10,419 nucleotides of DNA from an uncultured Eubacteriales bacterium. Its GTDB lineage: Bacteria > Bacillota > Clostridia > Lachnospirales > Lachnospiraceae. The notes below the pieces were generated by a model, which was given only the letters and a program-made list of their open reading frames with translations, made no database searches and was not told where the DNA came from. Both the position numbers and the translations under genes were made by a program. Positions 1 through 5,162 of the stretch are shown here, piece by piece; within the stretch, counting starts at the first letter, position 1, and the number at the start of each line of letters is the position of its first letter. The stretch spans positions 1-10,419 of the forward strand of contig OMSZ01000092.1 of NCBI GenBank assembly GCA_900313855.1, in the 5' to 3' direction.

Positions 1-681
1 CGGCTTCGACATTTCTCTGGCATACATGATCAAATATCCTACACCAACCGTAGATGCTATCATTTCAGCTGCCACAACACATGACCAGGCTGTACTTATA
101 CCAAGTCTAAGTCCGGTAAATATTGAAGGTAATGCTGACGGAATAATTACATCCTTCAGTATTACAGGCTTACTTTTTCCAAATATTTTTGCGACCTCGA
201 CAAGCTTCTTATCCGCCTGCGAAATACCGGTAATGGTATTTAACAGACATGGCCAGAAAGCTCCAACAAATATCAGTGCAATCTTTGAATCCTCTCCTAT
301 ACCTAGTGCAAGTATGAAAAGCGGAATACATGCTATCGGAGGGATAGGTCTTAATATTCCTATCAAAAGTATGAACGCCTGATTAAGCTTAGAGTAAAGA
401 CCTATCAAAATCCCCAGAAGAATTCCTGTCAAAGCTCCGATTATATAACCATGTAAAACACGTTTAAAGCTTACCAGTATATGACCCATAAGACTCCCGT
501 CTTCTATAACCTTAGCAAACTGAATATTAATCTTATGAGGAGTCGGAACAATTGACTGGTTAAACCATGAGTTATTACTTCCAACCACCCACAAAACTAT
601 GATTAATACTGGCAGGATTACAGAGATAATAAATGCTGTTATTCTATTGTCCGGTATTAAACTTTTCTTCTTTGATTTCAT
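1..681 (-). CDS. ABC transporter permease, SsuC/TauC-like (3' end outside window)
   Basis: Inner-membrane subunit of a binding-protein-dependent importer of the nitrate/sulfonate/taurine class. An open frame of 227 codons runs from the ATG at 681-679 to the window edge without a stop. The family is usually about 250-270 residues, so some 25-40 C-terminal residues are missing. A hydrophobic segment at residues 13-34 follows a lysine-rich start, and more hydrophobic stretches lie near 75-97, 102-127 and 133-150. The permease signature that docks the ATPase is visible at about 161-185 (VEVAKIFG, then IIPSALP). The start is set by AAGGAGTG a few bases upstream, overlapping the stop of the preceding gene, from which it is separated by 9 bases. 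It is the last visible gene of the metK run; its binding protein is encoded at 1175-2215 and the ATPase gene is expected further left. Substrate cannot be read from the sequence. Confidence 0.9.
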   Translation of the reverse strand, partial: MKSKKKSLIPDNRITAFIISVILPVLIIVLWVVGSNNSWFNQSIVPTPHKINIQFAKVIEDGSLMGHILVSFKRVLHGYIIGALTGILLGILIGLYSKLNQAFILLIGILRPIPPIACIPLFILALGIGEDSKIALIFVGAFWPCLLNTITGISQADKKLVEVAKIFGKSKPVILKDVIIPSALPSIFTGLRLGISTAWSCVVAAEMIASTVGVGYLIMYAREMSKP

Positions 682-690
682 AGTCACTCC

Positions 691-1152
691 TTATGCATAT
701 TTATCCAAATGAACATATAATGGGTATTTCTCCTTATGCTGACTCTGTTGATATTTATAAGTCTGCTCATATACCTCTTCCGGTTCAATGTAATATACAG
801 CAACCAGATCGTTATCTTTATTCCTCTCTTCTGCTAATCGATAGTATTTCTCATATTCTTTTCCGAAAACTCTTGTTCTTACAGGTTTACCTTTAATCAC
901 AAAGCTTCTCTTGTCAGATCCAACAATCGTAATTGAAATCTTCTTGTCATACCATATGCTGTATACCATATTCACATTAGTCTGGGACTTCTCGAAAAAT
1001 TCCAAATAAATTAACCGTCCTTCTTCATCTACCGTTAAAGACTGTTTTACCGCTGAGTGCACCTCTCCTTCCGGAGAGATGGTAGCGATAATTTTAAGAG
1101 ATGTCTCATTAAGAATAATGTCTTTTAATTCCTTGCCTATCTCTAAAGCCAT
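691..1152 (-). CDS. small FMN-binding split-barrel-like protein (pyridoxamine-phosphate-oxidase-like), copy 1
   Basis: A 153-residue soluble protein with no signal peptide or membrane segment. The first two thirds alternate short beta-strand-like stretches in the style of pyridoxamine 5'-phosphate oxidase-like split barrels: an N-terminal helix (about 1-16), KIIATISPEGEVHS, a strand ending LIYLEF, VYSIWYDKKISITIV, and RSFVIKGKPV. That fold usually binds FMN or another flavin, but I see no residue pattern that proves flavin binding here. The C-terminal part carries DNDLVAVYYIEPEEV and a YP...HLD ending. These blocks recur in the protein encoded at 2238-2696, so the two are paralogues. It lies between the binding protein and permease genes (22 and 9 base gaps), which is odd for a transporter cluster and suggests a role in handling the imported compound. 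AGAGGTGA precedes the ATG. Fold assignment is by pattern, function unknown. Confidence 0.8.
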   Translation of the reverse strand: MALEIGKELKDIILNETSLKIIATISPEGEVHSAVKQSLTVDEEGRLIYLEFFEKSQTNVNMVYSIWYDKKISITIVGSDKRSFVIKGKPVRTRVFGKEYEKYYRLAEERNKDNDLVAVYYIEPEEVYEQTYKYQQSQHKEKYPLYVHLDKYA

Positions 1153-3965: not shown

Positions 3966-3983
3966 AACATCAATCCTTATCTC

Positions 3984-5162
3984 TTATAAATACTTCTTTA
4001 TCTCTTCAACCTTATCAAGTTTCTCCCACGGAAGTTCAATATCCGTTCTTCCAAAATGACCATATGCTGCTGTCTGTTTATAAATCGGTCTCTTAAGATC
4101 AAGTGCATCAATAATTGCTGCAGGTCTTAAATCAAATACATTGTCTATAATCTCAACGATTTTTTCATCAGATACACTTCCTGTTCCGAATGTCTCAACA
4201 GCTACCGATACAGGCTTAGCAACACCAATTGCATATGCAAATTCAACCTCTGCCTTCTTAGCAACACCGGCAGCTACAAGGTTCTTCGCCACCCATCTTG
4301 CGGCGTATGCTGCTGAACGGTCTACCTTTGTAGGATCCTTTCCTGAGAAAGCTCCGCCTCCGTGACGTCCTGTTCCACCGTAGGTATCCACAATAATCTT
4401 TCTTCCTGTAAGTCCCGCATCTCCCTGTGGTCCACCGATAACAAATCTTCCGGTCGGATTAACATAGTAGATAGTATCATCATCAAGTAATTCATTTGGA
4501 ATCACAGGCTTGATAACCTTTTCAATAACATCTTCTCTTATCTGCTCTAAAGTTATTTCTTCTGCATGCTGTGTCGAGATAACTATCGTATGTATTCTCT
4601 TAACATTGTCATTATCATCAAACTCTACTGTGACCTGACTCTTTCCATCCGGTCTAAGATAATCTAATGTTCCGTCTTTTCTCACCTTTGCAAGCTGTCT
4701 TGTCAGTCTGTGTGCAAATGATATTGCAGGTGGCAGATACTCAGGTGTCTCGTTAGTAGCATATCCAAAAATGATACCCTGGTCTCCTGCACCTGTTCCG
4801 AAATCTTTTGTCTCACCTTCCTGTTTTGACTCATAAGCTTTATCAACACCAAGTGCAATATCTGCTGACTGCTCATCAATTGAAGTTAGTACAGCAATTG
4901 AATCCGCGTTGTAACCATCTACGTTATTGACATAACCGATTTCCTTAATTGTATCTCTTGCAACTTTGGCAATATCAACGTATGCGTTAGTTGTTATCTC
5001 TCCAACTATAAGTGCAAGTCCTGTAGCAACTGTTGTCTCCGCTGCAACTCTCGAATCCGGATCCTGCTCAATAAGTGCATCTAATATTGCATCTGAAATC
5101 TGATCTGCTATTTTATCGGGATGTCCCTCTGTAACTGATTCTGAAGTAAATAATCTTCCCAT
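3984..5162 (-). CDS. metK: S-adenosylmethionine synthetase (methionine adenosyltransferase)
   Basis: Makes S-adenosylmethionine from L-methionine and ATP, releasing phosphate and diphosphate; cytosolic, normally a homotetramer with Mg2+ and K+. The 392-residue length is normal. Signatures are GHPDK at 13-17 (ATP and metal site), GAGDQG at 124-129 (active-site loop), RFVIGGPQGDAG at 239-250, and GGGAFSGKDPTKVDRSAAY at 268-286 (phosphate-binding loop). No key residue is missing. The ATG is preceded by AGAGGA and by AAGGA very close to the start. It is the first gene of the left-hand run and lies only 18 bases before a radical SAM gene, so the enzyme that makes SAM is co-transcribed with one that uses it. 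Usually metK in Clostridia stands alone or behind a SAM riboswitch; here I find a promoter, a LacI-type operator and a short leader instead. Confidence 0.98.
   Translation of the reverse strand: MGRLFTSESVTEGHPDKIADQISDAILDALIEQDPDSRVAAETTVATGLALIVGEITTNAYVDIAKVARDTIKEIGYVNNVDGYNADSIAVLTSIDEQSADIALGVDKAYESKQEGETKDFGTGAGDQGIIFGYATNETPEYLPPAISFAHRLTRQLAKVRKDGTLDYLRPDGKSQVTVEFDDNDNVKRIHTIVISTQHAEEITLEQIREDVIEKVIKPVIPNELLDDDTIYYVNPTGRFVIGGPQGDAGLTGRKIIVDTYGGTGRHGGGAFSGKDPTKVDRSAAYAARWVAKNLVAAGVAKKAEVEFAYAIGVAKPVSVAVETFGTGSVSDEKIVEIIDNVFDLRPAAIIDALDLKRPIYKQTAAYGHFGRTDIELPWEKLDKVEEIKKYL

Follow-up and report, generated by a model that had tools for sequence, protein, structure and literature searches.

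A radical SAM, split-barrel and importer operon with its own metK as a candidate system for oxygen-free sulfonate assimilation in Lachnospiraceae

Contig OMSZ01000092.1 (assembly GCA_900313855.1), whose 10,419 nucleotides are together called the window here, carries six genes in a row on its minus strand: a methionine adenosyltransferase gene (metK), a radical S-adenosylmethionine (SAM) gene (rSAM1), a split-barrel gene (SB1), an SsuA/TauA-type substrate-binding protein gene, a second split-barrel gene (SB2) and an SsuC-type permease gene. From a comparison of these sequences with their relatives, we lean towards reading the operon as an oxygen-free assimilation system for a sulfonate or a closely related organosulfur anion; in its most cautious form, the reading is of a conserved anaerobic import-plus-radical-SAM module that appears tied to sulfur assimilation. 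The substrate class, a flavin, cleavage of the carbon-sulfur (C-S) bond, sulfite as the product and direct catalysis by the radical SAM protein are what we infer beyond that. A preliminary description of this DNA had already proposed anaerobic handling of a possibly sulfur-containing compound with a built-in SAM supply. That proposal is now backed, at the level of sequence, by an extra metK, a run of sulfur genes, kinship with isethionate reductase (Isr) genes and a lyase-type enzyme in the related run of genome G027; it had overlooked the Isr kinship, TauE, the siroheme context and the presence of another radical SAM gene.

The gene run and its conservation

The window takes up the whole of contig G000:C109 in the 2.2-Mb genome G000, which is in 425 contigs and about 80% complete; its named closest matches are Lachnospiraceae assemblies, rumen assemblies among them. 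The run begins with metK (3984..5162; 589.6 bits on TIGR01034), one of two copies in the genome, the other being on G000:C381. It continues with rSAM1 (2709..3965), which encodes a radical SAM enzyme with the cluster motif C-x9-C-x2-C (Cys158, Cys168, Cys171), SB1 (2238..2696), the SsuA/TauA-type gene (1175..2215), SB2 (691..1152) and the permease gene (1..687; PF00528, 76 bits), which is incomplete at the contig end (base 1) and starts at 687 (GTG) or 681 (ATG). From metK to the permease gene, the gaps are 18, 12, 22, 22 and 9 bases. The coordinates thus confirm the six same-strand genes and the 9-22-base spacing given earlier, with 3 bases possible for the last gap if the permease starts at GTG. 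The reported overlaps of stop codons with Shine-Dalgarno sequences can also be read, for example TAGGAGGG between the radical SAM gene and SB1.

As judged from sequence, the operon extends past the contig. Another contig of the same genome, G000:C357 (locus L030), opens with a match to the permease C-terminus and continues with SsuB, a second radical SAM gene (rSAM2, 43-44% identical to rSAM1), TauE/SafE, an Rrf2 regulator and a class-V aminotransferase that we read as a cysteine desulfurase. By-eye comparison with genome G013 has the permease resuming on C357 after about 18 residues. An SsuCAB-type importer is thus encoded across two contigs, the window supplying the SsuA and SsuC types and L030 the SsuB type. 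At the other end, G000:C284 (L138) carries hemC, a Met8-like gene, hemA and a sulfite reductase-like gene, and the same kind of comparison places the start of hemD at the end of C284, directly after hemC. G013 (98% complete) has the whole set on one contig and one strand, in the order sulfite reductase-like, hemA, Met8-like, hemC, hemD, hemB, hemL, lacI, metK, rSAM1, SB1, SsuA, SB2, SsuC, SsuB, rSAM2, TauE, O-acetylhomoserine (OAH) sulfhydrylase-like, TusA and MoeB-like (hemC and MoeB are names given by sequence reading and transferred to other loci via BLAST). Downstream of the sulfur genes, G013 also has a type 2A encapsulin (L031:714-1667; SrpI-like, 316.7 bits) together with desampylase-like and MoeB/SAMP-like genes.

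In a tree of 70 radical SAM sequences, rSAM1 falls in clade A (26 sequences, support 0.992), which groups with clade C (four sequences, 0.997) at support 1.0; the two are sister to clade B (29 sequences, 0.993). The 25 other clade A sequences come from 20 loci. Members occur in 6 of 98 relatives, 4 of 393 genomes of the class, 6 of 397 genomes of the family and, with a Clostridium tyrobutyricum query, 4 of 299 genomes of the phylum; these samples overlap, and G000 is counted within each. Five further loci are from named assemblies (L003, the same contig as G013:C5, is counted once). Relatives 50% identical to rSAM1 are found in C. tyrobutyricum and C. luticellarii, and plasmid records gave distant relatives only (two Streptomyces records, 26-27% identity). 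Eleven distant radical SAM rows beyond clades A, B and C lie outside every count, and weak matches in G172, G555, G682 and G750 (E above 1e-4) were left out.

Flanks were taken for all clade A matches, with the neighbourhood defined as the same strand within 6 kb. Around the 25 genes there is a split barrel in 24 cases, SsuA in 24, SsuB in 24, SsuC in 23, metK in 18, and TauE and lacI in 7 each. A split barrel and all of SsuA, SsuB and SsuC occur together in 23 of the 25, the two misses being rSAM2 of L030 (short contig and edge) and L095 (split barrel and SsuA only); genes of one locus have neighbours in common, and the 25 are not independent cases. The conserved linkage looked for after the preliminary description is therefore present, split barrel plus SsuA accompanying 24 of the 25 genes, and clade A homologues mostly lacking the split barrel or importer, which would have spoken against a system, are not what these neighbourhoods contain. 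Because few sampled genomes carry clade A and 23 of 25 neighbourhoods keep the full set, the family is rare and its gene set stable.

Of the two split-barrel proteins described earlier, SB1 stands by its predicted fold (mean predicted local distance difference test score 92.2), which is near HupZ and proteins that bind flavin mononucleotide (FMN), and SB2 by its 33% identity to SB1. No Pfam or NCBIfam model matched either protein at E 0.1, and a PDB sequence search with SB2 returned no relatives (best E 0.33). The split barrel may well bind flavin, going by such predicted neighbours. Over 23 radical SAM/split-barrel pairs, the two proteins co-vary (r 0.62, reached by 0 of 5000 permutations), a value that comes partly from shared ancestry, there being no third-gene control; the stronger part is the swap test. 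When SB1 and SB2 are exchanged within a genome, r drops to 0.31 in L004, 0.30 in L031 and 0.51 in L032, and in L113 it is almost unchanged (0.615). Because the exchange lowers co-variation in three of four genomes, SB2 appears to partner rSAM2, despite the two genes between them in G013. Weak split-barrel matches also lie downstream of the clade C radical SAM genes in L037, L106 and L107, and in L038 the radical SAM protein itself has such a match at its C-terminus (E 4e-4 with all open reading frames considered).

Kinship with isethionate reductase loci

The rSAM1 protein belongs to the radical SAM superfamily by both barrel fold and its three cluster Cys, and it matches the NF045502 variant_rSAM model with 170.5 bits (cut-off 125). 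The best fold matches are of the lipoyl synthase, HydE/HydG and biotin synthase kinds, with NifB and pyruvate formate-lyase activase on the same list at slightly lower Z; a PDB sequence search returned no relatives (best E 0.62). No row among the 26 of clade A, the 4 of clade C or the 27 examined of clade B lacks any of the three cluster Cys, the clade B count being without two partial rows (L045, L046). Three residues past the first cluster Cys, clade A has W and clade B has K.

Clade B contains the radical SAM proteins found beside Isr-type genes, and the tree places the clade of rSAM1 as their apparent sister group. In PMC11423573, IsrBHDK and SsuCAB, the isethionate reductase system of Rhodobacter capsulatus, are described as assimilating sulfonate sulfur without oxygen; IsrD is given a signature of one of the three P-cluster Cys with Pro/Ser at the third, and IsrK has Cys12/37/99. 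The same paper describes the role of IsrB as unclear, either bond cleavage or activation of IsrHDK. The window operon resembles this system in pairing a radical SAM protein with an SsuABC-type importer. It differs in having no nitrogenase-like gene, in the sister-clade position of its radical SAM protein and in its split barrels, which are a different family from the PNPOx protein of some Isr-type loci. 'Isr type' is used here on the strength of the IsrD/K signatures and of neighbourhood. The IsrD signature (single Cys, with P or S) is found in 9 of 21 D rows (L035, L046, L096-L099, L105, L109, L131); L132 is truncated, and the 11 rows with three Cys are another type (G005, G009, G011, G067, G076). 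The three Cys of K are kept in 19 of 19 rows, the Arg position being read by eye only. Several clade B loci have SsuABC-like genes and metK near the nitrogenase-like genes.

The likeness extends to metK and, in L105 (G683), to chromosomal site and operator. After hemC-hemD-hemB-hemL-lacI, where the window holds its nitrogenase-free operon, L105 has an Isr-type set (radical SAM, SsuCBA, metK and HDK). Two or three metK copies are present in the ten carriers of clade A that have metK at the clade A locus (G000, G013, G016, G021, G027, G039, G406, G570, G1022, G978), and among carriers with Isr-type loci there are two in G683, three in G367 and three in G382, one of the last being a broken piece. 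A single metK is found in carriers without a linked copy (G532, G1004), in the clade C genomes G040 and G087 and in the non-carriers G001, G002, G008, G009 and G019. In a tree, 20 linked copies, 14 from clade A loci and six from near nitrogenase-like or clade B radical SAM genes (L045, L096, L098, L105, L110, L131), split from 10 housekeeping copies with support 0.897. Support is 0.906 for 18 linked copies (without L113 and L114), 0.999 for 17 (also without L096) and 0.068 for 16. The lineage of the window metK thus appears common to clade A and Isr-type loci, a link between the two systems that suggests heavy consumption of SAM by each. One metK remnant, with two stop codons, lies between an IsrB-type radical SAM gene and a NifH-like gene (L093, about 6953-7261; G382:C13:79952-80260). 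When the window was scanned against Rfam at gathering thresholds, nothing matched, so that at this level neither a SAM riboswitch nor any other RNA on the list precedes metK.

Six of 15 carriers (G000, G013, G016, G027, G039, G570) have no PF00148 match for nitrogenase-like D/K genes; five of them are 91-99% complete and G000 about 80%, and the search was for D/K, H alone not being searched. These counts exclude the four genomes of L004-L007. Within 6 kb, L035 alone among the 25 clade A neighbourhoods has D/K-like genes. Because six of 15 carriers show no D/K match, nitrogenase-like genes are apparently not needed by the clade A operon. All eight clade B genomes tested with PF00148 have D/K matches (G011, G021, G054, G067, G076, G367, G382, G683), and the other six clade B genomes have D- or K-like genes at the locus itself (L097, L098, L099, L109, L110, L119), not all of these genes being of Isr type. 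Further D/K genes, with three Cys in D and several beside SsuABC-like genes, are found at L125, L126, L127 and L128 (G011, G005, G009), G011 having 14 PF00148 matches. A clade B query run against the plasmid collection matched 370 Klebsiella and 30 Escherichia records at <60% identity.

Sulfur genes, neighbours and regulation

Upstream of metK, the window holds lacI, hemL, hemB and a fused tetrapyrrole methylase-HemD gene, all on the minus strand. The fusion (8918..10417; PF00590, PF02602) is incomplete at the contig end and of the CobA/HemD type, on the branch towards siroheme; hemB (7938..8903) scores 504 bits on PF00490, and hemL (6659..7933), named by reading, matches the class-III aminotransferase model PF00202. 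A sulfite reductase-like protein is present in all five carriers where CysD was not found at E 1e-30 (G000, G013, G027, G683, G978); CysD was likewise not found in the non-carriers G002 and G009. The ATP sulfurylase model PF01747 had no match in any of eight genomes searched, these five included, the absences in G000 (about 80% complete) and G683 (89%) being weak. Because the sulfite reductase-like protein is present and ATP sulfurylase was not found, sulfite in the CysD-free carriers would be expected to arise from a source other than sulfate. The protein has NIR_SIR, NIR_SIR_ferr and 4Fe-4S domains (G013 and G000 only). TIGR02912, for sulfite reductase subunit C, passes its cut-off in 4 of 22 genomes; the operon neighbour, a NIR_SIR protein, is shorter. 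In L031, the gene that follows TauE reaches 434.7 on TIGR01326 (cut-off 495.1) and is called OAH sulfhydrylase-like for that reason.

The G027 run starts roughly 13 kb upstream of metK, where it has an additional SsuABC set and an enzyme of the glycyl radical type, which scores 1138 bits to the isethionate sulfite-lyase 7kq3 and 1159 to 5ymr; none of the other 14 carriers shows a comparable match. At E 1e-40, IslA-type matches occur in 3 of 15 carriers (G027 itself as the query, and G367 and G382, whose enzymes are 32-36% identical); G000 and G013 have none at that threshold. The clade A operon of G1004 contains SAF small-subunit and GD_AH large-subunit genes (L115:10606-12082), which we take to have the layout of sulfolactate sulfo-lyase (SuyAB). 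The pair matches models for galactarate/altronate dehydratase only, and is SuyAB-like by architecture.

Other neighbours are scattered observations, given without statistics. L113 (G1022:C73) has three clade A radical SAM genes around a single metK; SsuABC is present there twice and SsuA once more, in surroundings of Rrf2, CysK-like and OAH sulfhydrylase-like genes. Inside the clade A operon of G978 (L114:3760-6985), one gene encodes a double-cubane-type HGD-D protein and another a fusion of HGD-D with a BcrAD-type ATPase, which may act as an electron donor driven by ATP, and G683 has an FMN reductase gene between the radical SAM and split-barrel genes. A nucleosidase of the PNP_UDP_1 family follows SsuB in G406, and similar genes are found at the clade B loci L097 (9118-9831), L098 (8099-8800) and L100 (3248-3961, opposite strand); such nucleosidases could remove 5'-deoxyadenosine. 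Clade C genes (L037, L038, L106, L107) adjoin genes for importers of the energy-coupling factor (ECF) type, which in L038 include YkoF, CbiQ and ABC_cobalt (thiamin/hydroxymethylpyrimidine type).

The LacI-family regulator gene (5494..6570, minus strand; PF00356, PF13377) has counterparts on the same strand in the seven clade A neighbourhoods counted above and also beside the Isr-type operon L105. Between it and metK, a LacI-type operator-like palindrome, TGTAACCGTTTTCA, lies upstream of metK at 5359..5372 (2 mismatches to TGAAAACGTTTTCA), and a second, at 5462..5475 (1 mismatch), is ambiguous in lying within the stem of a terminator-like hairpin (5444..5482, minus strand; 17 pairs and a T run). 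The two other operator-like sites of the window, at 4511 and 7720, fall inside genes. Among 18 operons hand-picked from 16 loci, most of them in clade A and others in clade B, the palindrome TGAAAACGTTTTCA occurs with at most 2 mismatches in the 400 bases upstream of 12 and is missing there from six; 18 of the 21 operator-like sites of those loci fall in upstream stretches. In clade B-led operons, L105 and L034 have a site and L098 and L104 have none. The motif was chosen from these same upstream regions, and the fairer yardstick is a set of 188 permuted palindromes, which hit a mean of 0.11 operons and a maximum of 1. Terminator-like hairpins in the window show no excess over chance (5 vs 4.9 expected). 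The earlier statement that a promoter is predicted only before metK does not hold up, promoter-like sites being no more frequent than chance (30 vs 32.5 in shuffled sequences).

Proposed chemistry and alternatives

In the mechanism that we propose, SsuABC would import a sulfonate-like compound, and the radical SAM enzyme with its own split barrel would generate a 5'-deoxyadenosyl radical, the split barrel, probably a flavoprotein, giving or taking an electron. Hydrogen would be abstracted beside the sulfonate-bearing carbon, and the C-S bond would break to release sulfite. SAM would be consumed at each turnover as a co-substrate, which would explain an operon-borne MetK. The neighbouring siroheme-type sulfite reductase could then reduce the sulfite for O-acetylhomoserine sulfhydrylase and sulfur-carrier pathways. 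The pairs rSAM1+SB1 and rSAM2+SB2 would use one importer, making two substrates or two steps likely.

Beside Xsc, the nitrogenase-like Isr and the glycyl radical enzymes of IslA type, a further class of oxygen-independent desulfonase may be tentatively proposed, and we hold it possible without favouring it. In it, a radical SAM enzyme that stands alone apart from an obligate split-barrel (flavin) partner would cleave the C-S bond directly at the cost of one SAM for each sulfur atom, the SAM being recycled by a dedicated MetK; IsrB would, by kinship, act as the radical catalyst in Isr too, with IsrHDK as its ATP-driven electron source. Among the matches listed, the open-licence literature gave no description of a nitrogenase-free radical SAM sulfonate system. 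The operon can be set beside several known systems. Like the isethionate sulfite-lyase IslAB/IseG, it would cleave a sulfonate C-S bond by radical chemistry without oxygen, and in the G027 run an IslA-type gene, accompanied by its own SsuABC, lies upstream of the operon; unlike it, the window has no glycyl radical enzyme for its radical SAM protein to activate. The plan of an importer with a flavin-type partner is analogous to that of the SsuD/SsuE alkanesulfonate monooxygenase, with a radical SAM enzyme where a monooxygenase would be. MSMEG_0568 family radical SAM proteins, which belong to the Nit1C cyanide cluster, share the variant radical SAM superfamily (NF045502 relatives); however, rSAM1 scores 31.6 bits against the TIGR04043 cut-off of 303.7, and there is no nitrilase among the window genes. 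The methylthio-alkane reductase MarBHDK likewise combines C-S cleavage with a radical SAM gene; the window operon differs in having no HDK. According to PMC12552129, MarB has NifB motifs and is assumed to act in NifB-like cluster assembly.

A number of observations count against sulfonate assimilation as the role of the operon. The SsuA-type protein, whose N-terminal LTACG reads as lipoprotein-like, exceeds the NMT1 cut-off (PF09084) by 49 bits, but on TIGR01728 SsuA_fam it scores 123 bits, below the cut-off of 163.5; moreover, SsuA-type binding proteins also take non-sulfur ligands. HupZ, the nearest fold to SB1, is a heme-binding protein. TauE is close by in just those 7 of 25 neighbourhoods. 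CysD has a match in 10 of 15 carriers (four of these below the model cut-off), the sulfite reductase-like protein scores about 142-167 bits, short of the 324 that TIGR02912 requires, and is also present in the non-carrier G019, and nine of 15 carriers do have D/K matches, four of them also holding clade B (G021, G683, G367, G382) and the others being G532 (divergent), G406, G1022, G978 and G1004. The IslA-type enzyme should handle isethionate in G027, so that the operon there would have another substrate, and the ECF-type importer of clade C (YkoF in L038) suggests a thiamin-type ligand.

Other explanations differ in how well they account for the data. It is unlikely, though worth weighing first, that the radical SAM protein serves to activate or mature the split barrel or some other enzyme, with the partner doing the chemistry. 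Each radical SAM protein having its own co-varying split barrel would fit such a role, as would the weak split-barrel similarity at the C-terminus of the L038 protein and the suggestion, left unclear in PMC11423573, that IsrB may activate IsrHDK instead of cleaving a bond. However, a dedicated extra metK better suits stoichiometric use of SAM than one-off maturation, the window has no glycyl radical enzyme, and lipoyl synthase, HydE/HydG and biotin synthase rank above NifB and pyruvate formate-lyase activase among the folds.

We regard it as improbable that a cofactor precursor, whether thiamin-pyrimidine-like or some other small heterocycle, is salvaged in place of a sulfonate. The ECF-type importer genes beside clade C, with YkoF and ABC_cobalt components in L038, and the NMT1/THI5-like match of the SsuA protein point that way, whereas the sulfur-assimilation genes in several clade A neighbourhoods, the sister kinship to Isr-type loci and the LacI-type operators in common with some Isr-type operons point to sulfur. 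A thioether or other reduced organosulfur substrate, which would yield a thiol on cleavage in the manner of methylthio-alkane reductase, has about the same small chance. Radical SAM enzymes are able to cleave C-S bonds, and the neighbouring OAH sulfhydrylase-like enzyme could also accept thiols or sulfide; yet a sulfite reductase-like gene without an ATP sulfurylase match in five carriers argues for entry as sulfite, as do TauE/SafE, the SsuA-type importer and the isethionate lyase-type enzyme of the G027 run. That a housekeeping metK, a common gene that may neighbour anything, merely adjoins an unrelated operon by chance is scarcely credible and is rejected, given the second copy in G000, the linkage in 18 of 25 neighbourhoods and the separate lineage of the linked copies, 17 of them with near-full support.

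To our knowledge, few enzymes are known for the use of sulfonate sulfur by strict anaerobes. If the operon does assimilate sulfonate sulfur without oxygen, it would be a further route, with no nitrogenase-like complex, open to Clostridium and to the Lachnospiraceae of rumen and gut. The role of IsrB would become testable by experiment, because a radical SAM protein of its sister group occurs in genomes without a D/K match. In the 1990s, fermenting Clostridium strains reportedly used aryl and alkyl sulfonates as a sulfur source, and genes of the clade A type would be candidates for that use.

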